Below, one piece after another: positions 20,498 to 59,785 of a stretch of DNA of 64,000 nt; within the stretch, counting starts at the first letter, position 1, and every line of letters begins with the position of its first letter. This stretch comes from Iocasia fonsfrigidae (GTDB lineage Bacteria; Bacillota; Halanaerobiia; Halanaerobiales; DTU029). Made by a program: the position numbers and the translations under genes. Under the pieces are notes generated by a model, which worked only from the letters and a program-made list of their open reading frames with translations, was not told the origin of the DNA and did not search any database. The stretch is from assembly GCF_017751145.1 (NCBI RefSeq), contig NZ_CP046640.1:2646137-2710136 (forward strand). Direction: 5' to 3'.

Positions 20498-20554
20498 TAA
20501 TTTATGAAGAGTCAAAAACTATTCTCATAAGACCACTTCCCTCCGAAGATTCTA

Positions 20555-20712
20555 GTATTAGGTAAGTCTCCTGACTCGGCTTCATTTTACTCCCTGGCCT
20601 TTCCAGTTTTCCAGTGGCCATAATTAGGTTTCATCTGCCTCACAGTAGCGGGGGCTGTGCCGGATTTTCACCGAACTTCCTTGTTACGCTGTAACCAAAC
20701 AGCACCTAATAC
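20555..20712 (-). promoter_or_regulatory. cobalamin riboswitch upstream of cblT
   Basis: All standard marks of the cobalamin riboswitch are present on the minus strand: a closing stem GTATTAGGT/ACCTAATAC (20704-20712 with 20555-20563), the GGTGAAAATCCGGCACAGCC core, CCCCCGCTACTGTGA, GCCACTGG, and a B12-box-like AGTCAGGAGACTTACC at the 3' end. It should repress the cblT-cblS-cobUSC unit when adenosylcobalamin is bound. Confidence 0.95.
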
Positions 20713-20850
20713 GTTAAAAACCCCTTCTCATCTCGAGAAGAAGCTACACCCTTATCATATACGAAAAATAATAATTGATTTCTGAACAAATAGATTAAAC
20801 AAATCTATTCAGAATATTTACAGGTTGATTTTATCTATTCAATTGTCTAT

Positions 20851-24015: not shown

Positions 24016-24984
24016 TTAAACAAAAACAATAACAACCATTACTATCAACAAAAAAATTATTATACTTACATAGATCATCCTATTAACAATTTTTATATCC
24101 TGCCGCTTAAACTCCCTCAGTTTATCACCTAAATAGGCCCTGAAACTGGCCTGACCGTGGTAATAATTTATTCCGCCAAGCCTTATCCCCAGTGCTCCAG
24201 CAACTGCCCCTTCAGGATAACCTGCATTAAGACTGGGGTGTTTAGCCGCATCCCTAAACATAATCTGACAAGAACGCATTAAGTTTTGACCTGTAAGACC
24301 TGCAGCCAGACAAAGACAAATCCCAGTAATCCTGGCCGGAATCAGGTTGACTAAATCATCCAGTCTAGCAGCTGCCCACCCATAATACCTGTACCTATCA
24401 TTTTTATAACCCAGCATAGAATCAAGTGTATTAACCGCTTTATAAGTCATAGCCAGTGGGACACCCCCCAGTAAGTAAAAAAAGATAGGGGCCAGGATAC
24501 CATCTGAAGTGTTTTCAGCCAGGGTCTCAATAGCCGCCCTGACTACCCCTTCTTCCTTTAAACTGTCACAATCCCGTCCAACAATCTTATTGACGGCCTC
24601 TCTCGCCAAACTAAGCTTATCCTGTTCAAGGAGCCCATAAATCTGATTGCCAGCCTGTACTAGTCCCTTAATAGCAATTGTTGACTGTAATAAGTAGATA
24701 CTAAGAATAATGCCGACAATATAATGAAGGCCATAAAAAAATTCAATTATAAAATAAGTCCCCAAATATGTAAAAACAATTACTATTAACACCTCTGAGA
24801 TACCGGCAATCCTTTGTGCTCCAGGACTTTTGGCCAGAATCCTAAAAATTCTTTCCAGTAAGGATATTAATCTGCCTATATACACAACAGGGTGAGTTAT
24901 CCATAAAGGGTCTCCTATAATTAAATCAATTATAATAGCCATTATTAAAAACAAGAAATAATCTATGATTATCACCTCACCCAA
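24016..24984 (-). CDS. cbiB: adenosylcobinamide-phosphate synthase
   Basis: 322 residues, an integral membrane protein with several hydrophobic segments. Family marks are DLIIGDPLWITHPVVYIG near the N-terminus, ETLAENTSDGILAPIFF and KAVNTLDSMLGYKN in the middle, and HPSLNAGYPEGAVAGALGIRLGG near the C-terminus. It attaches aminopropanol (phosphate) to adenosylcobyric acid. The start is probably TTG at 24984 or GTG at 24975; both overlap or abut the cobyric acid synthase stop, so translation is coupled. Confidence 0.94.
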   Translation of the reverse strand: MGEVIIIDYFLFLIMAIIIDLIIGDPLWITHPVVYIGRLISLLERIFRILAKSPGAQRIAGISEVLIVIVFTYLGTYFIIEFFYGLHYIVGIILSIYLLQSTIAIKGLVQAGNQIYGLLEQDKLSLAREAVNKIVGRDCDSLKEEGVVRAAIETLAENTSDGILAPIFFYLLGGVPLAMTYKAVNTLDSMLGYKNDRYRYYGWAAARLDDLVNLIPARITGICLCLAAGLTGQNLMRSCQIMFRDAAKHPSLNAGYPEGAVAGALGIRLGGINYYHGQASFRAYLGDKLREFKRQDIKIVNRMIYVSIIIFLLIVMVVIVFV

Positions 24985-26494
24985 AAATTACCCTGTCCAG
25001 TTTTGCTCTTACTATATTTTTTTCCAACAGGTCAGCAAATCTATCATAGGCATCTTCCCGCAGACGCCGGGAAGATATATACTGGCTGCTTAAAGGGCGT
25101 AAACCCTTTTTTGCCCTTAGATAATTGATGAAAAACCTTCGGAATCGGTCATTATCAAATATCCCATGGAGATAAGTACCCCAGACCAGACCATCATCAC
25201 TTATCAAACCATCATCGAAACTCTCTCCCTTATCTCCCCAGGGCATAATCTTCAGCAACTGATTTTGATCACTATCAATACGACCCCTCCCGTGGTGGAT
25301 CTCATAGCCTGTTAGCACCTCACCCTGTAAATCTTTAAAAAAAGAAATATCAGTATTTATACTGGCTTTAACCTGTCTGCTTATCTTTTCCCCAGCATAA
25401 ACTGTTTCCATTTCCAGAAGACCCAGTCCAGCAACAACTTCTTCACTGGATTCAACATGTGCAGGGTCAATAACCCTTCTCCCCAGCATCTGATAACCAC
25501 CACAAATACCAAGCACCGGTATCCCCTGTCTGTACTTTTGCCTGATGACCTCAATATAACCCTGACTGTAGAGATATTGTAGATCCTCTATAGTATTCTT
25601 GCTGCCGGGAATAATAATTAAGTCTGGTTCACCTATCTCAGATAGCTCCCGTAAATACCTTACCCTGGTTTCAGGTTCAGCAGCCAGCAGGTCAAAATCA
25701 GTAAAATTAGAAATGTGGGGTAGATATAGAATTACAATATCAAGCTGGTAATCAGTATCACCCTGGATATCCTGGGCAAGACTGTCTTCTTCGGGTATCT
25801 TAATATCTTTCAAATAAGGGATAACACCCAGGACTGGTTTGCCGGTATATTTTTCAATAAAGTCTATCCCTCCTTCAAAACGGGCCTGGTCCCCGCGAAA
25901 TTTATTAATTATAATTCCCTTTACCCGCTCCCTCTCCTCCTGAGTAAGTAATTCCAGGGTACCTACAATCGAGGCAAAAACCCCTCCTTTATCAATATCA
26001 GCTACCAGGATTACCGGGGCATCTATCATTTCAGCTATTTTCATATTAACCAGGTCATATTCCCGCAGATTAATTTCAGCAGGACTCCCTGCCCCTTCCA
26101 TAACAATAATTTCCCACTCTTCGACCAGCCTTTGCAGGGACTCCTCAATCGCCTCTAAGGATTTTCCCTGGTCTGAAAAATACTCTTTAGCCTTTATATT
26201 CTTTACTGCCTGGCCATGAATAATGAGCTGGGAATTATCATCCTGATTGGGCTTTAATAAGACTGGATTCATATCAACAGTTGCTACTACCCTGGCTGCC
26301 TCAGCCTGTACAGCCTGGGCCCTGCCAATTTCACCACCATCCCTGGTAATAAAAGAATTTAAAGCCATATTCTGTGATTTGAAAGGTGCCACCTGGTAAC
26401 CATCACGAACCAGCAAACGACAGAGACCTGCTGTAATGACACTTTTGCCCACATCAGAACCTGTTCCCTGTATCATAATAGATTTAGCAGTCAT
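24977..26494 (-). CDS. cbiP: cobyric acid synthase, copy 1
   Basis: 505 residues, full length. The N-terminal synthetase domain begins with the P-loop GTGSDVGKS (10-18). The C-terminal glutamine amidotransferase domain has the nucleophile Cys in VLGICGGYQMLG and the His in GTYLHGIFD. It amidates positions b, d, e and g of adenosylcobyrinic acid a,c-diamide using glutamine and ATP (EC 6.3.5.10). All key residues are intact. A second full-length copy lies directly upstream, which is unusual. It overlaps cbiB by eight bases. Confidence 0.95.
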   Translation of the reverse strand: MTAKSIMIQGTGSDVGKSVITAGLCRLLVRDGYQVAPFKSQNMALNSFITRDGGEIGRAQAVQAEAARVVATVDMNPVLLKPNQDDNSQLIIHGQAVKNIKAKEYFSDQGKSLEAIEESLQRLVEEWEIIVMEGAGSPAEINLREYDLVNMKIAEMIDAPVILVADIDKGGVFASIVGTLELLTQEERERVKGIIINKFRGDQARFEGGIDFIEKYTGKPVLGVIPYLKDIKIPEEDSLAQDIQGDTDYQLDIVILYLPHISNFTDFDLLAAEPETRVRYLRELSEIGEPDLIIIPGSKNTIEDLQYLYSQGYIEVIRQKYRQGIPVLGICGGYQMLGRRVIDPAHVESSEEVVAGLGLLEMETVYAGEKISRQVKASINTDISFFKDLQGEVLTGYEIHHGRGRIDSDQNQLLKIMPWGDKGESFDDGLISDDGLVWGTYLHGIFDNDRFRRFFINYLRAKKGLRPLSSQYISSRRLREDAYDRFADLLEKNIVRAKLDRVIFG

Positions 26495-26528
26495 ATCTTA
26501 CACCCTCATCTAACAAATTATAAGATTC

Positions 26529-26640
26529 TGTTCGAAAAGTATCAGTATATACCGCCGGGGATTATCTATCCCTTCACTCAACGGTAACACCTTAACTTCG
26601 TTCAGGGATAGATAATCCCCTATATATATTTTTTCGAACA
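26529..26640. repeat. long inverted repeat between the two cobyric acid synthase genes
   Basis: An outer perfect ten-base repeat (TGTTCGAAAA 26529-26538, TTTTCGAACA 26631-26640) and an inner perfect 17-base repeat (26557-26573 with 26604-26620) make a 112-base hairpin-capable element. The right arm runs into the end of cobyric acid synthase copy 2 and supplies its last codons and stop. It looks like a small non-coding insertion (MITE-like) or a strong mRNA hairpin. It lacks a clear U-tract on the minus strand. Confidence 0.8.
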
Positions 26641-28188
26641 CATACTATAAATAAGATCCATATCAAGACTATCCTCTACAATATCAGCCAGTTGATCATA
26701 ATCAGCAATCAGACCCTTTTGATAAGAAAGACTACGCTTGATAGGAGCCAATCCCTTTCTCAACCTCAAATTATTAAGTAAAGTATTGCGTAATATATCA
26801 TTATTAAATAAACCATGGAGATAAGTCCCAAAGTGCAGTCTATTCTCAGACAGACTTCCATCTTCTATTTTAACACATTTATCTGAACGAGAAAAAATAT
26901 TAAAGATGAAACTTTTATTCCCTTGCTCAGTATAAGAACTCTCTCCCATATGAATTTCATAAGCTGTCATCTCCTCACCTTCAAGTCCCTGCAATAATAA
27001 AGGCCCTCCCCTGCTTATAGCTTTAACCTGATGGGTTGTTTTTTCTGCTAAAAAATTTGTTTTAATAGGCAGTAAACCTAAACCCCTTATTTCTTCCCTT
27101 TCACCCTCAGTATGGTAGGGGTCATATAAAAACTGGCCCATCATTTGATAGCCACCACAAATTCCTATTACCGGGACACCCTTTCTGGCCGAAAACTGAA
27201 TCTCTTGAGCCAGACCCTTGTTTTTTATATATTCCAGATCAGAGGTAGTACTCTTGGTTCCAGGGATTATAATTAAGTCAAGCCCCCTAACTTGAAGAGG
27301 AGTACTTACATATGTTAAAGAAACATCCTTAGCTAATGATAGTGGAGAAAAATCAGTAAAATTGGACATATGTGGCAGTTGAATTATCCCAATTTTTAGG
27401 TCTCTCTGTTCAGTAGATTTACCTCCTTGTAATTGCAAGGAAGCTGAATCCTCCTCTGGCAGCCTAATATCTTTCAAATACGGGATTACCCCCAGGACTG
27501 GTTTACCGGTATATTCTTCCAGGAAATCTAGCCCGGGTTTAAGCAGGTCAAAATCACCGCGGAAGCGGTTAATTATCAACCCCTTAACTAGTTCCCGTTC
27601 TTCTTTTTCCATTAAACGTAGGGTGCCAACCAGAGCGGCCAGGGCACCTCCCCTAGCTACATCTGTTACCAGGATCACAGGGCTCTTAAATAAAGCTGCT
27701 ACCTTCATATTAGCCAGGTCCCAGTCTTTAACATTAATCTCAACAGGGCTCCCGGCACCCTCCATTACTACAATATCATTATTTTCCCTGAGTTTATTTA
27801 AGGCCAACTCTATGTTTTTTAGAGCCATTCTCATGTATTTACTATCTTTTTGCTGTCCCATCTCACCAATAGGTTTGCCTCTCACTATTACCTGACTTAA
27901 TCCATTTCCTTTCGGTTTAACAAGAATAGGCTGCATATCCACTACAGGTTCTACTCCTGCTGCCTCAGCTTGTATTACCTGGGCAATACCAATTTCTCCG
28001 CCTCCAGCTGTAACAGCCGAGTTCAGTGACATATTCCAGGACTTAAAAGGGGCTACCTTAAAATTATTGCGAGCAAATATCCGGCAGAGAGCAGTGGCAA
28101 CCATACTTTTCCCGACATCTGAGGCTGTTCCCTGAATCATAATAGTCTTATTATCTATAAGCAGCTTATTATTTTCCTCTTTGATCAT
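26620..28188 (-). CDS. cbiP: cobyric acid synthase, copy 2
   Basis: 522 residues, full length and intact. It has the P-loop GTASDVGKS (21-29), the amidotransferase Cys in VIGICGGYQMMG and the His in GTYLHGLFN. It is clearly related to copy 1 but diverged, for example KSWNMSLNSAVTAGG here versus KSQNMALNSFITRDG there, so the duplication is not recent or one copy was acquired. Residues CSKKYI at its C-terminus and the TAG stop come from the inverted repeat at 26529-26640. It overlaps the cbiD end by 20 bases. The copies may differ in substrate, or one may be redundant. Confidence 0.94.
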   Translation of the reverse strand: MIKEENNKLLIDNKTIMIQGTASDVGKSMVATALCRIFARNNFKVAPFKSWNMSLNSAVTAGGGEIGIAQVIQAEAAGVEPVVDMQPILVKPKGNGLSQVIVRGKPIGEMGQQKDSKYMRMALKNIELALNKLRENNDIVVMEGAGSPVEINVKDWDLANMKVAALFKSPVILVTDVARGGALAALVGTLRLMEKEERELVKGLIINRFRGDFDLLKPGLDFLEEYTGKPVLGVIPYLKDIRLPEEDSASLQLQGGKSTEQRDLKIGIIQLPHMSNFTDFSPLSLAKDVSLTYVSTPLQVRGLDLIIIPGTKSTTSDLEYIKNKGLAQEIQFSARKGVPVIGICGGYQMMGQFLYDPYHTEGEREEIRGLGLLPIKTNFLAEKTTHQVKAISRGGPLLLQGLEGEEMTAYEIHMGESSYTEQGNKSFIFNIFSRSDKCVKIEDGSLSENRLHFGTYLHGLFNNDILRNTLLNNLRLRKGLAPIKRSLSYQKGLIADYDQLADIVEDSLDMDLIYSMCSKKYI

Positions 28189-29266
28189 AAGTACCCAGTA
28201 CCCCTTCCTCCAGAGTAAATATAATGCTTTTAAGCCCCATTCCCTCTTCCCTTAAATACTCTTTTATTCTGATAACTACCCGTTCAGCCAACAGATCAAA
28301 GACAGCTACCAACCCGGCCTCTATAATAATCCCTACAGCCTCAGCTGATGTATTACTACTGAGAATACAACAGATCGTCTCTCTATCTCCACCTAATGCT
28401 GCAGTATAAGCAGCTATAATCTCCAGACGGGCATCAGCTACCTTACTATGAGTATTAAAAATACCCCCGGCAAGTTTAACTATCTTTCCTAAATGACCCA
28501 AAATAATAACCCTCTTTATCTTTAAACGCTGACACTCCCTGAGCATGTAGCCAGCAAAATTACTCATTCTCACTACCTCTTTAGGCTGATACCCCAATTT
28601 GACAGCCATTTCCCGGCCATAATTGCCAAAGACCAATACCACCTGGTCCCCACCTTCAACCACAAGCTGTTTTAATTCAAGGGCCAGAGATTCCTGATAG
28701 GCCTTTTTGGACATGGGCTCAACAATCCCGCTTGTCCCCAGGATAGAGATGCCCCCGACAATCCCCAGCCTGGGATTAAAGGTCTTCTGTGCCACCTCTT
28801 CACCCCCAGGCACCTCTATCATTACTTTGGCACCACTGCCCTCAGGTAAAACAGAGCTAACTGCTTCTTTAATCATTTTCTCAGGGACAGGATTAATGGC
28901 AGCTTTACCCACTGGAACAGATAAGCCCGGTTTAGTTACCCGACCTACCCCCTGTCCACCACTTAATTCGATTCCTGTACTAATCTCTTCAACCCGGGCA
29001 GCGATTTCCATTCCATCAGTTAGATCAGGGTCATCACCAGCATCTTTTTCTACAAAAACCCTGACAAAACCCTCACCATATTCCACCGCCTTCAAAGGAA
29101 TATTTAATTCTATTCCTGCTGGGGTCTTGATTTGTACTTGCTCAGGTTCTTGACCGGTAAATAGAATAAGAGCAGCACCTTTAGCAGCAGCTGCTGCTGC
29201 ACTACCTGTCGTAAAGCCCCTCCTATATCTCTTGCCATTGATTGTTACATAAGACTCAAAGACCAT
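28169..29266 (-). CDS. cbiD: cobalt-precorrin-5B (C1)-methyltransferase
   Basis: 365 residues of the CbiD family, which methylates C1 of the ring in the anaerobic pathway and is unrelated to the other methyltransferases. Family marks are RGFTTGSAAAAAAKGA (about 16-31), the GDDPDLTDG stretch (about 77-85), ILGTSGIVEPMS in the middle and GHLGKIVKLAGGIFNTHSK near residue 255-275. It lies six bases after cbiC. Its presence, with CbiG and CbiK, shows the oxygen-independent route. Confidence 0.96.
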   Translation of the reverse strand: MVFESYVTINGKRYRRGFTTGSAAAAAAKGAALILFTGQEPEQVQIKTPAGIELNIPLKAVEYGEGFVRVFVEKDAGDDPDLTDGMEIAARVEEISTGIELSGGQGVGRVTKPGLSVPVGKAAINPVPEKMIKEAVSSVLPEGSGAKVMIEVPGGEEVAQKTFNPRLGIVGGISILGTSGIVEPMSKKAYQESLALELKQLVVEGGDQVVLVFGNYGREMAVKLGYQPKEVVRMSNFAGYMLRECQRLKIKRVIILGHLGKIVKLAGGIFNTHSKVADARLEIIAAYTAALGGDRETICCILSSNTSAEAVGIIIEAGLVAVFDLLAERVVIRIKEYLREEGMGLKSIIFTLEEGVLGTYDQRGK

Positions 29267-30445: not shown

Positions 30446-31810
30446 TTATTTCTTATATAGTAAGGCCCTACGCAAAAAATTACTGGCAATCCCAGGATTA
30501 CTGGCAAAATGGAGATGGACATAACTGGCCAGCAGATTATTAGTAGGGCTATAACCCTCCAGCCTTCCATCACTAAGCCGGTAAGTTTTTTTGACACCTG
30601 ATGTCAGATTATTTAACCTGGAATAATGAAAGACATGCCCCCTGGCCTTTTCATTACTATTTAAGATAAGATTACTGTTAAGTGTTGTTAACTCCACATA
30701 ACCCATCTCCTGTAGTGAACCCTGCATTTCAACCTTGCCTGGAATAAGACCTAGCATCTGGTAGGCATTCCCTTTAAAATCAATAATCTCCTGACTTAGA
30801 TACATTAAACCACCACATTCAGCATAAAGAGGCATACCAGCCTGAGCTTTTTCCCTTATATCATTTTTCATATCTTGATTAGCTGCCAGTTCCTCCAGAA
30901 AACTCTCCGGGAAACCACCTCCCAGATAGATACCGTCCAGCTCAGGCAATTTTTTATCCTGCATAGGACTAAAATAGATTAATTCTGCCCCCAGCTTTGC
31001 TAATAAATCCAGATTGTATTGATAATAGAAATTAAAGGCCTGGTCATACGCTATACCTATTTTAACATTAAATTCCCTCTCCTGTGAATATAATCTATGT
31101 TTATTAACCTTTATTTTTCTACAGTCTGCAGATAATTTTATTAATTTATCAAGGTCCAACTGTTTTTCAATAAGCTGAATTAACTGCTTAATAAAAAACT
31201 TCGATTCCCCACTTTCATGGATAGGGACAAGTCCCAGGTGTCTTTCCGGGAGTTCCAGTCCCTTTTGACGGGGGAGATATCCTAGAATCTCCAGCTCAGG
31301 CATTTTCTCTACTACTGCCTCTTTGATTAGAGTATAATGGCGTTCACTGGCAATATTATTAAAGATTACTCCCTTTAGATTAAGTCCAGGGTCATAATTC
31401 TTATAGCCATAGATTAGCGCAGCTGCACTCTGGGCCATTTTTTGAGCATCTACAACCAAGACAAGCGGCGTCTGAAGTATCCCGGCAATCTCAGCCGTAC
31501 TGCTTACCCCGGTCTTGCCCTTACCATCAAAAAGACCCATTACACCTTCTATAATACTAATATCAGCCCCTGCTGAACTATTACTATATAACTCCTTTAC
31601 CCCATCACAACCCAGGAAATAACTGTCCAGGTTATAGGAGTTGTTTCCTGTAAAGAGGGTATGAAAACCAGGGTCAATATAATCAGGGCCAACCTTATAA
31701 GGCTGTACCTGATATCCCCTCCGGCTAAGGGCAGCCATTATCCCCAGTGAGATAGTAGTCTTACCTACACCACTTTTGGTTCCAGCAATAAGCAGTCTTT
31801 TCTCCTTCAT
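30446..31810 (-). CDS. cbiA: cobyrinate a,c-diamide synthase
   Basis: 454 residues from the ATG at 31810, which has a GAGGAGGTG ribosome site seven bases away; a longer reading to 31828 adds six residues and lacks such a site. The P-loop GTKSGVGKTTIS opens the protein and the amidotransferase Cys is in PLYAECGGLMYLS. It amidates the a and c side chains using glutamine and ATP (EC 6.3.5.11). It overlaps the end of cbiG by 50 bases in another frame, an unusually long overlap for this operon. Confidence 0.95.
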   Translation of the reverse strand: MKEKRLLIAGTKSGVGKTTISLGIMAALSRRGYQVQPYKVGPDYIDPGFHTLFTGNNSYNLDSYFLGCDGVKELYSNSSAGADISIIEGVMGLFDGKGKTGVSSTAEIAGILQTPLVLVVDAQKMAQSAAALIYGYKNYDPGLNLKGVIFNNIASERHYTLIKEAVVEKMPELEILGYLPRQKGLELPERHLGLVPIHESGESKFFIKQLIQLIEKQLDLDKLIKLSADCRKIKVNKHRLYSQEREFNVKIGIAYDQAFNFYYQYNLDLLAKLGAELIYFSPMQDKKLPELDGIYLGGGFPESFLEELAANQDMKNDIREKAQAGMPLYAECGGLMYLSQEIIDFKGNAYQMLGLIPGKVEMQGSLQEMGYVELTTLNSNLILNSNEKARGHVFHYSRLNNLTSGVKKTYRLSDGRLEGYSPTNNLLASYVHLHFASNPGIASNFLRRALLYKK

Positions 31811-32879
31811 CAAGCACCACCTCCTCAACTACTGCTATGGTTACTCTACTAAATTTTGTTTTTTCCAGTATTAATTTCCCTGTTTTAGAACTCAATAGGG
31901 CAGCTGGTTCACAGACACCAGGTACCCCGATCATTTTTTCCACAAATTCTGAACTGCTGATATTTAAATCAGCCTTTTTTATCTCTTCCCTTTTAATTAT
32001 ATCAATCTCCAAAGAGTTCTCAACCGCATAGGCGATTAATCCGCTCTCATCTTCTTTTAAATCAATCGTAGCTAATTTCTTAATACTCTCTCTCTTTATA
32101 TTTACGATATTTAGAGCAGCATCTATAGCTTTAGTAATCTCTGAAACTGTCACACCCCTCCGGCAGCCAATACCAATTATGATATTCCGAGGGATAAGTT
32201 GTAGATAATTACTATCAATGCTAAACTGCCTATTACTGATAATAAGTGGGAAACCACTCTGGGTAGTCCTGGTATTTAAATCTGAAAGGGGGAAAAACTC
32301 AATATTATCACTGTGAACAGAATTAATTTTATGGTCTGTGAAGATATTAAGCAGTCTGTTATTTACAATAGCAGCATTAGCCAGTTTCAAATTTTGAAAG
32401 GGCTCAATACTAGCATTGATTCTTTTAGCCAGCAGGTCAATAGCTGGCTTACCTTGACAATCTGTAGCAGTAGTAATAACTGCTGTAGAATCGAGTATTT
32501 CAGCTATTTTTTCTGTTAATTCATTAGCCCCTCCTAAATGTCCAGCAAGAGTACTGATGACATGTCGACCAGTCTCATCAATAGTTACTACCGCGGGGTC
32601 CACCCTTTTATCCTTTAGAAAAGGGGCAATTACCCTCACCACTATTCCCAGGGCCATAATATAGATTATTTTATTATATCTCTTAAACAAACTTGCTGTC
32701 AGGTCTTTTAAAGATGAATTATAATAATTTGCCTCTTTTTCACAAATCATATTATCCCTAGATTCTTTTAATTTGTATGGAAAATACAGGTCAACACCTT
32801 CTAAAGAATTGCTAATCTTAAAGGCCAGCTCTTTTCCCCCAACAGTTAAAGTCACTACTGCTGTCCTTTCTTTAAGCAT
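31761..32879 (-). CDS. cbiG: cobalt-precorrin-5A hydrolase
   Basis: 372 residues. CbiG opens the delta-lactone of cobalt-precorrin-5A and releases acetaldehyde (EC 3.7.1.12), a step specific to the anaerobic pathway. Marks are GIVVRVIAPFLKDKRVDPAVV (about 77-97, read in two parts here), ISTLAGHLGGANELT and the C-terminal IIIGIGCRRGVTVSEI. The C-terminal 17 or so residues overlap the cbiA start region. The start overlaps the cbiJ stop by eight bases. Confidence 0.94.
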   Translation of the reverse strand: MLKERTAVVTLTVGGKELAFKISNSLEGVDLYFPYKLKESRDNMICEKEANYYNSSLKDLTASLFKRYNKIIYIMALGIVVRVIAPFLKDKRVDPAVVTIDETGRHVISTLAGHLGGANELTEKIAEILDSTAVITTATDCQGKPAIDLLAKRINASIEPFQNLKLANAAIVNNRLLNIFTDHKINSVHSDNIEFFPLSDLNTRTTQSGFPLIISNRQFSIDSNYLQLIPRNIIIGIGCRRGVTVSEITKAIDAALNIVNIKRESIKKLATIDLKEDESGLIAYAVENSLEIDIIKREEIKKADLNISSSEFVEKMIGVPGVCEPAALLSSKTGKLILEKTKFSRVTIAVVEEVVLDEGEKTAYCWNQKWCR

Positions 32880-34417: not shown

Positions 34418-35941
34418 TCACTTAATTTCCTTTATCTTAGCAATATATTGCTGCTGTATCGACTCATACTCTCCCATACCGGACAGGTAAATCTCAACCT
34501 CAAAACCCTCCTGTTCCAGTTTGCTTTTCCAGCTGTCTTCCTCATCACTGGCCATATCATTTTGAGCATGTTCCCCTGCCACCAGCATCAAGGGAGCCAG
34601 ATAAACCTTCTTTATATTATCTCTTTTTAGAAACTTAATTACCTGAGTAATCTCTGGGTAACCTTCCACAGTAGCAACATAATAATTTGCTAGACCTTTA
34701 TCTTTAAAGGTATAATCAAGACAGGCATAGGCAGAATTAGCAAAATGTTCTGTGCCATGCCCCATTAATACTACGGCTTCACCTTTAGCTGGTTCCGGAA
34801 GTTCTTTTTTTAAGGCCTTAACTGTCTTAAAGTAGTCTCCCTTATCTGTTAGGAGTGGTTTGCCGACCTTCATATCTTTAAATAATCCCCTGTAATTATT
34901 AGCTATCTCAAGCAAATCATGATACTCACTACCATTTATGATATGGAGTGGTTGAATAATAATCTCCTGATAACTATCACTATAAAGCTCTTTTAAGGCC
35001 TCTTCAGGACTATTTACTTTTATTCCATCCCTTTTCTGCAGGATATCTATTATCATCCCGGAAGTAAAAGCCCTTTTTATATCATAATCAGTAAATTCTG
35101 CAGCAATTCTATCCTCACAGGCCTCAATTGTTTTTTCCCTTGTTCCGGCATAACTTGTTCCAAAACTAACTACTAGAATGGCCTTTTTAACCTTTTCTCC
35201 TACCCGATAGGCATGACTAAACCCTTGATCATAAAGTTTGGAACGGGAATAATCACAATCAAGGAAATCACCGACTAAAATCATAGCCGTCTTTTTGATA
35301 CCAGCTTCCTTTACTTTGACTGCAATATTGGACAATTTTCCTCGAATAATAATTTCATCAGGCCATGATGCCCTGGCTACTACGATAATAGGGGTATCCT
35401 CTGGATAACCCTCTAATAGCTCAGCAACAACCCCTTCGATCATTTGAATACTTAAAAAGATAGCCATTGATGCCCTGTGTGAGGCCAACTCAGCTATTTT
35501 TTCCCTATCCGGGACAGGGGTTCTCCCCCCTCTTCTAGTAAGAATAACAGTCTGAGAAACATCTGGCAGGGTAAATTCCCTTCCCACAGCTGCTGCAGCC
35601 GCCAGAAAAGAACTAACACCGGGAATAATCTTATACTCAATATTCTTTTTACGCAATATATCAATCTGTTCCTGGATAGCTCCATATAAAGAAGGATCAC
35701 CTGTATGGAGCCTAACGACTGTTTTACCTTCTACTACTGCCTTTTCGATTAGCCTAATTACCTCTTCTAAATTCATCACTGCACTATTATAGGCCTCTGC
35801 TTCTGGACAAAATTTTAAAATCTCAGGATTAACCAGTGAACCAGTATAGATAACAAGGTCTGCCTTTTCCAGAGCCTTTTTCCCTCTAATAGTTATTAAC
35901 TTCGGGTCACCAGCACCTGCCCCCACATAATATACCTGCAT
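34418..35941 (-). CDS. cbiFK: fusion of cobalt-precorrin-4 methyltransferase (CbiF) and sirohydrochlorin cobaltochelatase (CbiK)
   Basis: 507 residues from the ATG at 35941, which has a GGAGGTGG ribosome site; an upstream ATG at 35992 adds 17 residues without one. The N-terminal half (to about 240) is CbiF: YYVGAGAGDPKLIT, LHTGDPSLYGA and TRRGGRTPVP. The C-terminal half, from about residue 250 (ILVVSFGTSYAGTREKTI), is CbiK, with metal-binding His residues in QPLHIINGSEYHD and MLVAGEHAQND. It joins cobalt insertion with the C11 methylation several steps later. It is the first gene behind the second riboswitch. Confidence 0.95.
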   Translation of the reverse strand: MQVYYVGAGAGDPKLITIRGKKALEKADLVIYTGSLVNPEILKFCPEAEAYNSAVMNLEEVIRLIEKAVVEGKTVVRLHTGDPSLYGAIQEQIDILRKKNIEYKIIPGVSSFLAAAAAVGREFTLPDVSQTVILTRRGGRTPVPDREKIAELASHRASMAIFLSIQMIEGVVAELLEGYPEDTPIIVVARASWPDEIIIRGKLSNIAVKVKEAGIKKTAMILVGDFLDCDYSRSKLYDQGFSHAYRVGEKVKKAILVVSFGTSYAGTREKTIEACEDRIAAEFTDYDIKRAFTSGMIIDILQKRDGIKVNSPEEALKELYSDSYQEIIIQPLHIINGSEYHDLLEIANNYRGLFKDMKVGKPLLTDKGDYFKTVKALKKELPEPAKGEAVVLMGHGTEHFANSAYACLDYTFKDKGLANYYVATVEGYPEITQVIKFLKRDNIKKVYLAPLMLVAGEHAQNDMASDEEDSWKSKLEQEGFEVEIYLSGMGEYESIQQQYIAKIKEIK

Positions 35942-36020
35942 TAGACCACCTCCAATAATTTCTCCATAATCAAAATTAACTAAACTAATCATTATATCTA
36001 TTCATTAATAATATGTATAA

Positions 36021-36156: not shown

Positions 36157-36288
36157 AAAATAACTATGTCTGAAATATTTTTATAAGACATCAAACTAAT
36201 ATCTTGTAAAACATCTGATGATTAGCAGTATATCAAACACGAGCTATCCTTCGCTACCTCTAATACCGGAGGAAAATACGAAGTACTC

Positions 36289-36441
36289 AATAATGGCAGG
36301 TCTTCTGGCTTCAACCTATTTAAGATATATACCCTTCCCACCTAAAAGCAGTGGAATATATATAAAGAAAATTACAGGTTGTTACAGCTGCGGCTACAGC
36401 AACGGTTTCTCACCGTTTTCCCTATTTAATTAACCATTATT
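36289..36441 (-). promoter_or_regulatory. cobalamin riboswitch upstream of cbiFK
   Basis: The minus strand reads through the conserved parts in order: closing stem AATAATGG/CCATTATT (36434-36441 with 36289-36296), GGGAAAACGGTGAGAAACCG, GCTGTAGCCGCAGCTGTAAC, CCACTGC, GGTGGGAAGG, and the B12 box AAGCCAGAAGACCTGCC. The plus-strand ORF that crosses it is not real. Confidence 0.93.
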
Positions 36442-36538
36442 AGAACTCTTTTATCTGTTTAATTGTAGATAATATTTATATAAATAAACCCCCTGTTTAA
36501 TCTTAATTAAAAGATACAAACTTGTTAAATTCAAATCT

Positions 36539-57736: not shown

Positions 57737-57835
57737 TCAATAAACTGACTGAAGTATTTCATATTTATCCATCCCTGATAAATAAACTTCTACCTCAAAA
57801 CCCTCTCTTTTAAAGGCAGTTTCCCTGTTTACTAA
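57737..57835 (-). pseudogene. cbiK: remnant of a cbiK gene (last ~30 codons)
   Basis: In the frame ending at the TGA at 57737-57739 the minus strand reads FKREGFEVEVYLSGMDKYEI, matching the C-terminus of the CbiK half of the fusion protein at 34418 (EGFEVEIYLSGMGEYESI). Nothing upstream of this match remains; the frame instead runs into the end of cbiL. This is the tail of a lost separate cbiK. Confidence 0.88.
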
Positions 57836-58526
57836 TTAGTAAAGAAAGATACTCTATCTCATCCACCTTTAGTGAATCAAGGTCTCTAATATGTATTTCT
57901 CTCTCCAGACCACACCTACTTATTATCACAGCATTGTCTTTTAGCTCCATCCTCTCGAGGAGTTCATATACCTGCTGATAATTCCTAGATAACTTCATCA
58001 CAACAACATTATCAAAGATATTAAAAATATCCTCTAGTTCGTTTTCATCCACCTTAGATAGTAACGCAATGTTCTCATCGTTTTCAGCCAGAGGCAGATT
58101 ACAACTAGCTGTACAGGCATTAATGGAACTTATACCTGGTACTGTCTCAACCCTAAGATTAACAAGGAGTTTATTTAAGCTATTTAAGATATAGATATAG
58201 GTACTATAGAGCAAAGGATCACCTATCGTTATAAAAGCCAGGTCTTTGCCCTTTTTTAATTCTTTACTCATTTTTATAGCTGCCTTATCCCAAGCCTGAT
58301 TCAAATCAGGCTGCTTATATGTCATGGGGAAATACAGCTTTATTATTCTCCCTGCACAATCAATTTCTTTACTGATAATACTAAAAGCCAGACTTTCTTT
58401 ATCCTTCCCGGTCTGTGGCACACAGATATAGTCAACCTGTTTGAGAACCTTGACTGCTTTTAATGTTAATAATTCAGGGTCTCCAGGACCAACCCCGACA
58501 CCATATAATTTACCTTGCACAATCAT
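57810..58526 (-). CDS. cbiL: cobalt-precorrin-2 (C20)-methyltransferase
   Basis: 238 residues of the tetrapyrrole methyltransferase family. GVGVGPGDPELLTLKAVKVL opens the SAM-binding fold, ITIGDPLLYSTYIYIL is the second loop and VPGISSINACTASCNLPLAE the CbiL-specific third. It methylates C20 early in the corrin pathway. Its last eight or so residues (ISKQGNCL) and its stop are read out of frame from the cbiK remnant, so the natural C-terminus may have been lost. The start overlaps the cbiT stop by four bases. Confidence 0.94.
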   Translation of the reverse strand: MIVQGKLYGVGVGPGDPELLTLKAVKVLKQVDYICVPQTGKDKESLAFSIISKEIDCAGRIIKLYFPMTYKQPDLNQAWDKAAIKMSKELKKGKDLAFITIGDPLLYSTYIYILNSLNKLLVNLRVETVPGISSINACTASCNLPLAENDENIALLSKVDENELEDIFNIFDNVVVMKLSRNYQQVYELLERMELKDNAVIISRCGLEREIHIRDLDSLKVDEIEYLSLLISKQGNCL

Positions 58527-59113
58527 TCCCTCTTTGCTGCACTAATAATATAAACTGGATTGAGGGCAGCAAACATATGATAATCAGCGACTTTCTTTGT
58601 CCTGGTCACTGCAATATGGCATATATCCACTTGGTACTGCAAACCCCCTAAATATTCTATAGCCTGATTAAGTGTATTGATAGTTACTGCAGTTATGACA
58701 ATCCTTCCCCTCTTTTTTAATTTCTTGTTAATTATCTTTAATATTTCCTGAAGATTACCACCACTCCCACCAACTATTACCCGGTCAGGGGCAGGCAAAC
58801 TAGCTAAGACCTCAGAGGCCTCACCTGGAACAAATTCTATATTATCCAGACCAAAATTAGCTGCATTTTCTTTAATTAAACTAAGAGCCTCTTCTTTTCT
58901 CTCCACAGCATAGATAACACCTTCTCCTACCTGAAAAGCAGCCTCAATCGAGATACTCCCTGTGCCAGCACCAATATCAAAGACTATCTGTCCAGGTTTT
59001 AACCTTAATTTAGCAATTACAACTGCCCTTATCTCTTCTTTAGTCATAGGAACATTTCCCCGTATAAATAGGTCATCAGGTATTCCAGCTGTTTTATAAT
59101 CCCATTTTGCCAT
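58523..59113 (-). CDS. cbiT: cobalt-precorrin-6B (C15)-methyltransferase, decarboxylating
   Basis: 196 residues with a Rossmann-type SAM-binding fold: VFDIGAGTGSISIEAA (about 44-59) is motif I and DRVIVGGSGGNLQEILK motif IV. It methylates C15 and removes the acetate carboxyl at C12. With the separate CbiE it does the work of the aerobic fusion CobL. It overlaps cbiE by 20 bases and cbiL by four. Confidence 0.94.
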   Translation of the reverse strand: MAKWDYKTAGIPDDLFIRGNVPMTKEEIRAVVIAKLRLKPGQIVFDIGAGTGSISIEAAFQVGEGVIYAVERKEEALSLIKENAANFGLDNIEFVPGEASEVLASLPAPDRVIVGGSGGNLQEILKIINKKLKKRGRIVITAVTINTLNQAIEYLGGLQYQVDICHIAVTRTKKVADYHMFAALNPVYIISAAKRE

Positions 59114-59732
59114 TTAAAATCACCATCACTGTTAATTTTGCAAAATTATATTCTGTCAGTTCCTGCAGACTACCCCTGACAATCCTTTCCTCAGGATAGG
59201 AGAGGTTTTCAAAGACTACAGCCTGTCTATTTGCTATACCCTGCTTAAGTAAAAATGAGGAAATCTGATCAGGAGGAAATTTACTGTCTGTAAATAAACC
59301 CACTTTATCATTTGTCCTGACTTCCCTTAAAAATTTTTCCCTATTATTTTTACCATGTAGACTGCTAATTTTCAGATCATGCCAATTTAATTTTATCCTG
59401 GCCGAAGCCAGTTGTAGAGAACTTATTCCTGGAATAACCTCTAATAACTCTTGAGCTATCTCTTTTTTTAAGTAATTCATCATACTGTACAGTCCAGGGT
59501 CACCAGAAACCAGCACTGAAATACATTTTTTTTGATAATTGGCTAGAATATAATCCCTGATTTTCTCTAACTCAGCTGTAATCTGAATCTTTTCTTTATC
59601 CAGCTCAGCAAACATTTCTAAAGCCCGCTTTCCAGCAATCAGTACATCTGAACTGGCAATAATATCTTTTGTGATTTTTAATAAATAATCACGATGACCA
59701 GGGCCAATCCCCAATACATATATTTTATTCAT
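59094..59732 (-). CDS. cbiE: cobalt-precorrin-7 (C5)-methyltransferase
   Basis: 212 residues from the ATG at 59732; a longer frame to 59783 overlaps a promoter-like sequence and lacks a ribosome site. The SAM-binding start IYVLGIGPGHRDYLL, SVLVSGDPGLYSMM and VIPGISSLQLASARI are the three methyltransferase motifs, in the CbiE form. It methylates C5. It is the first of cbiE-cbiT-cbiL. Confidence 0.93.
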   Translation of the reverse strand: MNKIYVLGIGPGHRDYLLKITKDIIASSDVLIAGKRALEMFAELDKEKIQITAELEKIRDYILANYQKKCISVLVSGDPGLYSMMNYLKKEIAQELLEVIPGISSLQLASARIKLNWHDLKISSLHGKNNREKFLREVRTNDKVGLFTDSKFPPDQISSFLLKQGIANRQAVVFENLSYPEERIVRGSLQELTEYNFAKLTVMVILNGKMGL

Positions 59733-59756
59733 CAATAATCCCCTTTTTTGATAAAC

Positions 59757-59785
59757 TATATAAGTAGCACTTAAATATTGCACAA
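59757..59785 (-). promoter_or_regulatory. candidate promoter of cbiE-cbiT-cbiL
   Basis: TTGTGC (59780-59785) and TATATA (59757-59762) lie 17 bases apart on the minus strand, between the receptor gene and the cbiE ATG. It would let cbiETL be expressed apart from the uptake genes. Confidence 0.4.

Follow-up and report, generated by a model that had tools for sequence, protein, structure and literature searches.

A tandem pair of cobyric acid synthase paralogues in Iocasia fonsfrigidae, one of them a tryptophan-loop variant that may have a role of its own

Cobyric acid synthase (CbiP/CobQ) acts on corrinoid side chains at positions b, d, e and g, and the f side chain carries the aminopropanol. 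In the pathway source PMC7242693 the CbiP positions are printed as b, d, e and f. As regards salvage, PMC3541065 predicts that DUF71-B12 proteins, with the motif ENGE[FY]H, act in cobamide remodelling, and PMC6461909 places cbiA/cobB in 46% of the precursor salvagers of its data set. Here we describe two CbiP genes that lie side by side in Iocasia fonsfrigidae (Bacillota, Halanaerobiia), in a stretch of 64,000 nucleotides (the window; NZ_CP046640.1, positions 2,646,137 to 2,710,136 of the forward strand). CbiP-A (24977-26494, minus strand, 505 aa) is of the ordinary type, with the loop PFKSQNMALNS (Q-type), and CbiP-B (26620-28188, minus strand, 522 aa) is a paralogue with the loop PFKSWNMSLNS (W-type) that probably has its own job.

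Two intact genes and the residues that set one apart

Both genes are complete open reading frames with the same Pfam domains (CbiA-type nucleotide-binding and GATase_3), and both lie over the curated cut-offs for cobyric acid synthase: against TIGR00313 (cut-off 309.9) CbiP-A gives 566.8 and CbiP-B 523.0 bits, and against NF001989 (cut-off 273) the scores are 640.2 and 593.2 bits. The P-loop Lys and the Cys and His of the glutamine amidotransferase (GATase) domain are in both, and the two proteins are 47% identical over 496 aligned columns. The first-pass annotation, which had described two intact, adjoining and clearly diverged cobyric acid synthases that each keep these catalytic residues, was thus correct on all of these points. 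The window's own genome (3.93 Mb, one contig) has four cobyric acid synthase matches, of which only CbiP-A and CbiP-B are over the cut-off.

An alignment of 186 full-length proteins, many of them close relatives, was divided into 35 W-type proteins (defined by Trp at position 41, WIN_A numbering, used throughout), 28 A-type partners and 123 ordinary CbiPs, with 16 shortened proteins left out of the full-length counts. By our own yardstick, agreement of at least 90% among the ordinary CbiPs, 115 columns are conserved in the family. None of these is changed in most of the 28 A-type proteins, but seven are changed in most of the W-type: 41 (Q to W), 58, 76 (N to Q), 80, 105, 143 and 196. All seven lie within the synthetase (ATP/corrinoid) domain, outside its P-loop, and the GATase domain has none of them. 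For position 41 the comparison is circular in the W-type set, since Trp there defines it, and in the clades defined by the tree described below this position is Trp in 26/26 B and Gln in 22/22 A proteins. The Trp of CbiP-B (Trp51, codon 28036-28038, minus strand) is Gln in CbiP-A and in 115 of the 123 ordinary CbiPs. At columns 41, 105 and 143 the ordinary residue is kept by 28/28 A-type proteins, and the P-loop Lys, GATase Cys and GATase His are present in 35/35 W-type and 28/28 A-type proteins. By the conserved residues of the 115 columns the A type belongs with cobyric acid synthase and the B type does not, and B is accordingly classed, on its ancestry, as a variant branch of the family, with less confidence placed in its working as a cobyric acid synthase. 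An earlier suggestion, that one copy may have a changed substrate site, is in keeping with these comparisons, in which only the majority of B proteins departs from the conserved residues and does so only in the synthetase domain.

The Gln/Trp residue sits two residues past the Lys of PFK(S/A/G)(Q/W)NM. In a profile alignment this Lys falls on a Lys of dethiobiotin synthetase, which we take to be catalytic in that enzyme, and the residues that follow, the changed Gln among them, form a short two-residue insertion directly behind the Lys-Pro of that enzyme; the corresponding loop of CbiA presumably affects the choice of carboxylates amidated. A predicted model of CbiP-B (mean pLDDT 89.3) has the two halves expected, the synthetase half with the dethiobiotin synthetase fold (1dbs, Z 19.3, 3.2 Å over 216 residues; 1dts, Z 18.9) and the GATase half with the GATase fold, as in GatD (9sqj, Z 20.3, 3.5 Å over 222 residues; 6fqb, Z 20.2). 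Sequence searches found no solved CbiP/CobQ structure (CbiP-B alone gave 0 matches), and profile searches of structures returned GatD chains, other glutaminases, CTP synthase, dethiobiotin synthetases and weak, chance-like matches. Two of the GatD chains carry the label 'Cobyric acid synthase' but are called GatD in the titles of the fold search. The changed residues may touch the substrate.

Shortened CbiPs that lack the GATase domain were also observed (16 rows of 265-322 aa, one of them cut by a contig end, from 11 genomes and 8 families; four of the 16 were checked against Pfam). They include those at L133:8639-10355, L134:5177-6872, L135:2-799, L136:7745-8602, L229:7527-8459, L230:7685-8533, L231:7855-8724, L232:5388-6299, L233:6547-7434, L234:7142-7984, L235:1490-3237 and L236:6656-8418. 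At L133 the following genes overlap or abut, so that there is no room for the missing half, and the CbiA of that locus retains GATase_3. In two f69 genomes (L235:1490-2296 and L236:7609-8418) the partner of a shortened W-type protein is without the P-loop Lys and the PFK-QN loop and looks like an inactive or regulatory leftover. Leu45 of the Gln/Trp loop is missing in 16/16 shortened proteins and present in 183/186 full-length ones, a pattern from which this residue would appear to serve the GATase side, by contact or along an ammonia path. The W-type proteins keep Leu45 in 35/35, which argues that they use glutamine.

Distribution, age and gene content

The class was sampled with 59 genomes, whose loci were then read to sort the CbiP types. 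A CbiP match was found in 39/59, and 22/59 have the full-length tandem with B upstream of A, in fixed order and mostly with tight spacing. A and B are both shortened to about 286 aa in G032 and G033, the latter with a third short copy on a different contig. Seven genomes have the B type without A, namely G015, G041-G045 (B is present twice in G045, on different contigs) and, in shortened form, G009. Six of the remaining eight CbiP genomes were read and are all ordinary, and the matches in G035 and G036, whose loci lay outside the set read, were left unassigned. In the phylum sample (299 genomes) 179 have a CbiP match at E 1e-60 or better, 161 of them one and only 18 two, which bears out the view that the enzyme is normally single. 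A DNA pattern for the Trp loop, with the exact motif required, occurs in 18/398 phylum genomes, 12 inside the class and six outside it. These six (G059, G244, G286, G209, G230 and G316), from three other families, have the same tandem with the Trp copy upstream of the Gln copy. Beyond the phylum, no W-type protein was among the best 80 of 317 loci from one scan of a species-genome collection with B as query, a weak test, as the scan used six exact peptide patterns and may miss near relatives. The second CbiP copy of G150 and G220 was not located within the stretches fetched, and in G212 both copies are of the Gln type and lie on different contigs.

In a careful tree of 53 rows the 17 W-type rows fall on one side of a branch with support 90/97 and the 15 A-type rows (the Gln partners) on one side of another with 85/82, both supports being below the tree tool's star; for the 77-row alignment a quick tree only was made. 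The deep order is weak (58/91) and A and B are not sisters. A first tree had them as sisters (100/99), as expected for duplication at the base of the class, and this idea was dropped after pairs from three families had been added. Recent duplication is ruled out by the two branches common to several families. From these trees the tandem pair is judged to be old, having either predated the class or moved as a unit. Thus, of the supposition that tandem copies might be both common and recent throughout the clade, the first half holds (22/59 full-length) and the second does not. Identity is 0.583 between A proteins and 0.557 between B proteins, and the two are correlated (r 0.92; 91 pairs from 14 genomes), so B appears to be constrained about as A is.

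The seven genomes with B alone also differ in what accompanies it. CbiA, CbiD and CbiL are each found in 0/7 of them, but CbiA is present in 24/24 of the genomes with A and B (22 full-length and two shortened). Three of the latter (G040, G052 and G056) are without CbiD and CbiL and yet keep CbiA and A, and G014 is missing only the CbiL match. As a separate observation, six genomes (G040, G052, G056, G016, G007 and G037) combine CbiA and CbiP with no CbiD or CbiL match, suggesting that they salvage corrinoids at the level of cobyrinic acid. DUF71 (PF01902) shows the reverse distribution to CbiA, with 7/7 B-only and 0/24 A+B genomes, and occurs in 9/59 class genomes in all, the other two being G029 and G005, both without a CbiP match. 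The Fisher test gives p = 3.8e-7 for CbiA and 3.8e-7 for DUF71, with kinship ignored. The motif ENGE[FY]H is present in five of the six B-only DUF71 loci read (G015 has EEGEFH; the G044 locus lay outside the set read) and also in the DUF71 of G029. The DUF71 gene of G041 adjoins a cobA-like gene, and in G015 and G009 no recognisable B12 link was seen among the DUF71 neighbours. CbiZ is found in 1/59 class genomes (G008). At the loci with B alone, CobU is a neighbour of B, as is CbiB wherever it can be seen on the contig, L241 being the exception; a CbiB match exists in 5/7 of these genomes. The idea that one copy might serve under other conditions fits these seven genomes, which have B but no A, CbiA, CbiD or CbiL.

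A separate role for CbiP-B and the alternatives

The reading that we tentatively prefer, while giving it somewhat less than an even chance, is that A would be the de novo cobyric acid synthase and B an amidotransferase that uses glutamine, acts on corrinoids, most likely salvaged or remodelled ones, and has an altered acceptor site. CbiP-A, which appears from its residues and company to be an unaltered cobyric acid synthase that goes with CbiA, would take the adenosylcobyrinic acid a,c-diamide that CbiA produces and amidate it at side chains b, d, e and g. CbiP-B would retain the two-step chemistry, in which a corrinoid carboxylate is first phosphorylated by ATP and the phosphate is then displaced by ammonia that the protein's GATase domain supplies, with an acceptor site that may have been rebuilt chiefly at the loop after the Lys (Q to W), at a turn changed from MNP to MQP and at the places of Tyr105 and Leu143. 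Its job would be separable from de novo synthesis, namely the amidation of free carboxylates, whether of corrinoids obtained by salvage or remodelling or of some late intermediate, and it would act just before CbiB attaches aminopropanol phosphate. The simplest substrate would be a corrinoid that enters the cell, or comes out of remodelling, with at least one free side-chain carboxylate and with a and c already amidated. This chemistry, substrate and salvage role are inferred; the two branches, the tandem, the residue changes, the kept catalytic residues and the occurrence of B without A are direct observations. More specifically, the W-type CbiP could be an undescribed amidotransferase that restores amides on corrinoids in which deamidation, or over-hydrolysis during remodelling, has left carboxylate b, d, e or g free, a proposal that we consider doubtful; the propionamides b, d and e are chemically more labile than the others.

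A number of observations weigh against a salvage role for B. The seven B-only genomes represent about three lineages (five are one genus) and hence about three losses of A, and with an equal chance of loss for either copy three of three would be expected one time in eight. Two of them, G043 and G044, have no CbiB match. Elsewhere ordinary CbiP is kept without CbiA in 27/179 CbiP genomes (at 1e-60; the count includes G015, G041 and G059), and the 14 CbiA-less ordinary CbiPs that were read all keep Gln, so salvage as such needs no Trp; the Trp as a general signature of salvage is ruled out by the same 14/14. G059 has the pair and no CbiA match, and the window's own genome is without DUF71 and CbiZ and yet keeps B. 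As for the residues, columns 58, 76, 80 and 196 are partly relaxed in A too (64-82% kept), the ordinary residue at 58 and 196 is still present in nearly half of the W-type proteins, and eight ordinary Clostridium CbiPs (loci L079, L082, L094, L095, L096, L103, L104 and L111) carry Leu or Met in place of the Gln.

A and B might instead divide the labour, each amidating some of positions b, d, e and g de novo, perhaps with an intermediate passed between the adjacent, co-translated proteins. The fixed gene order, the mostly tight spacing and the single gene run behind a riboswitch are in keeping with this, as is the shortening of both tandem copies together in G032/G033 and likewise in G138/G268, and the title of reference 131 in PMC7242693 has the amidations of the ordinary enzyme sequential and dissociative, by which intermediates could pass between enzymes. 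We think it unlikely all the same, because seven genomes keep B without A, CbiA, CbiD or CbiL, and because A, unchanged in the majority at 115/115 columns, gives nothing to suggest that it does less than an ordinary CbiP. Similarly improbable to us is redundancy for dosage, with B drifting while it carries out the same reaction on the same substrate. The maintenance of two branches side by side across several families, the one-sided change (seven against none of 115 columns, in the synthetase domain only) and a B-B identity close to that of A-A all speak against drift, even though both proteins score well above what the family models require, f7 and G015 have their single B in the usual CbiP place beside CobU and CbiB, and position 41 varies in eight ordinary CbiPs.

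It is very unlikely that B does no amidation at all and activates the f propionate for CbiB, as an acyl phosphate for the aminopropanol. B does adjoin CbiB at several of the loci without A, in G009 it has no GATase domain and the synthetase half resembles dethiobiotin synthetase (1dbs, as above), but 35/35 full-length W-type proteins retain Leu45 together with the Cys and His of the GATase domain and so look selected for glutamine use, and CbiB functions elsewhere without B. Nothing was found in favour of B being a duplicate that arose by chance and serves no selected function, a reading that is scarcely credible given the catalytic residues in 35/35 proteins, the keeping of B alone in the B-only genomes and its presence in several families.

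If B does have its own substrate, as we tentatively prefer, then the annotation 'cobyric acid synthase' hides a second corrinoid amidation activity, and B-only genomes may wrongly be credited with converting the a,c-diamide to cobyric acid. A separate substrate would also have a bearing on the retention of amidation genes by corrinoid salvagers. A and B occur together in nature and are told apart by a few diagnostic residues, and so offer a ready experiment on side-chain choice in multi-site amidases.

Surrounding genes and comparison with known systems

Both copies belong to a run of genes headed by a cobalamin riboswitch (36278-36453, minus strand; RF00174, 89.9 bits), the order from upstream to downstream being a CbiF-CbiK fusion, CbiH, CbiJ, CbiG, CbiA, CobA, CbiC, CbiD, CbiP-B, CbiP-A, CbiB, PduX and CobD. 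A second cobalamin riboswitch (20544-20724, minus strand; RF00174, 105.9 bits) heads the nucleotide-loop genes, with CblT-like, CblS-like, CobU, CobS and CobC following it. The names CobA, CbiC, CbiH, PduX, CobD, CblS, CblT, CobU, CobS and CobC are those of the families to which we take the translations to belong, and the CblS-like protein gave weak matches only in the family search. The neighbour upstream of CbiP-B is CbiD (28169-29266, minus strand; TIGR00312, 411.4 bits), which overlaps its start by 20 bases, and downstream of CbiP-A is CbiB (24016-24984, minus strand; TIGR00380 match in its own genome), which overlaps its end by 8 bases. The a,c-diamide synthase CbiA of the same run is at 30446-31828 (minus strand; TIGR00379, 525.6 bits). 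CbiL, CbiT and CbiE occur in a second cluster of ring genes (57810-59783, minus strand), and the ring pathway therefore looks complete. The CbiF of the main run is fused to the cobaltochelatase CbiK in one protein of 524 aa (window 34418-35992), and CbiFK-like proteins of about 508-514 aa are seen at several related loci as well.

Between CbiP-B and CbiP-A lies a perfect 17-bp inverted repeat with a 30-nt loop (26557-26620, minus strand), whose first base on the minus strand is the final base of the CbiP-B stop codon and which is part of a larger, imperfect palindrome. The fold of 153 nt around it (-51.2 kcal/mol, z -5.9) is far stronger than those of shuffled sequences. The repeat has no second copy in the window, to which the search was confined within this genome, and among the fetched loci a looser form was found only in those of this same place. 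It could set the ratio of B to A or could be an insertion scar.

No description of a W-type or of a tandem or paralogous CbiP was found in the literature searched, most subscription journals lying outside the search, and an amide-restoring repair step was not seen in the published salvage schemes looked at. With CbiP/CobQ, A and B share the domain order, the P-loop, the GATase Cys and His and scores over the cut-offs, but B differs from it, in most W-type proteins, at seven conserved columns, in Trp for Gln and in forming a separate branch, and is paired with A in the loci read except for the seven class genomes without A, CbiA, CbiD and CbiL. CbiA/CobB has the same two-domain design and type of reaction, but CbiP-B is below its cut-offs (TIGR00379, 64.9 against 261.4 bits; NF002204, 63.7 against 254 bits) and a true CbiA is encoded separately; as a Ni-sirohydrochlorin a,c-diamide synthase (CfbB) CbiP-B reaches 50.5 bits against a cut-off of 560. 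Dethiobiotin synthetase (1dbs, 1dts), which carboxylates a diamine, has the fold of the synthetase half but is without a GATase domain. The lipid II amidotransferase MurT/GatD, in which MurT is a relative of the Mur ligases, has the fold of the GATase domain in common with B. It is a two-subunit enzyme with a peptidoglycan substrate, according to PMC6085368 and PMC5871853. For cobamide remodelling by CbiZ or DUF71-B12, the DUF71-B12 account, in the portion of PMC3541065 seen, proposes no specialised CbiP and names CbiP once, in a figure legend. With this system the B-only genomes have DUF71 in common, with the DUF71-B12 type of motif at the six loci read, and their B is found with CobU and, in five, CbiB.

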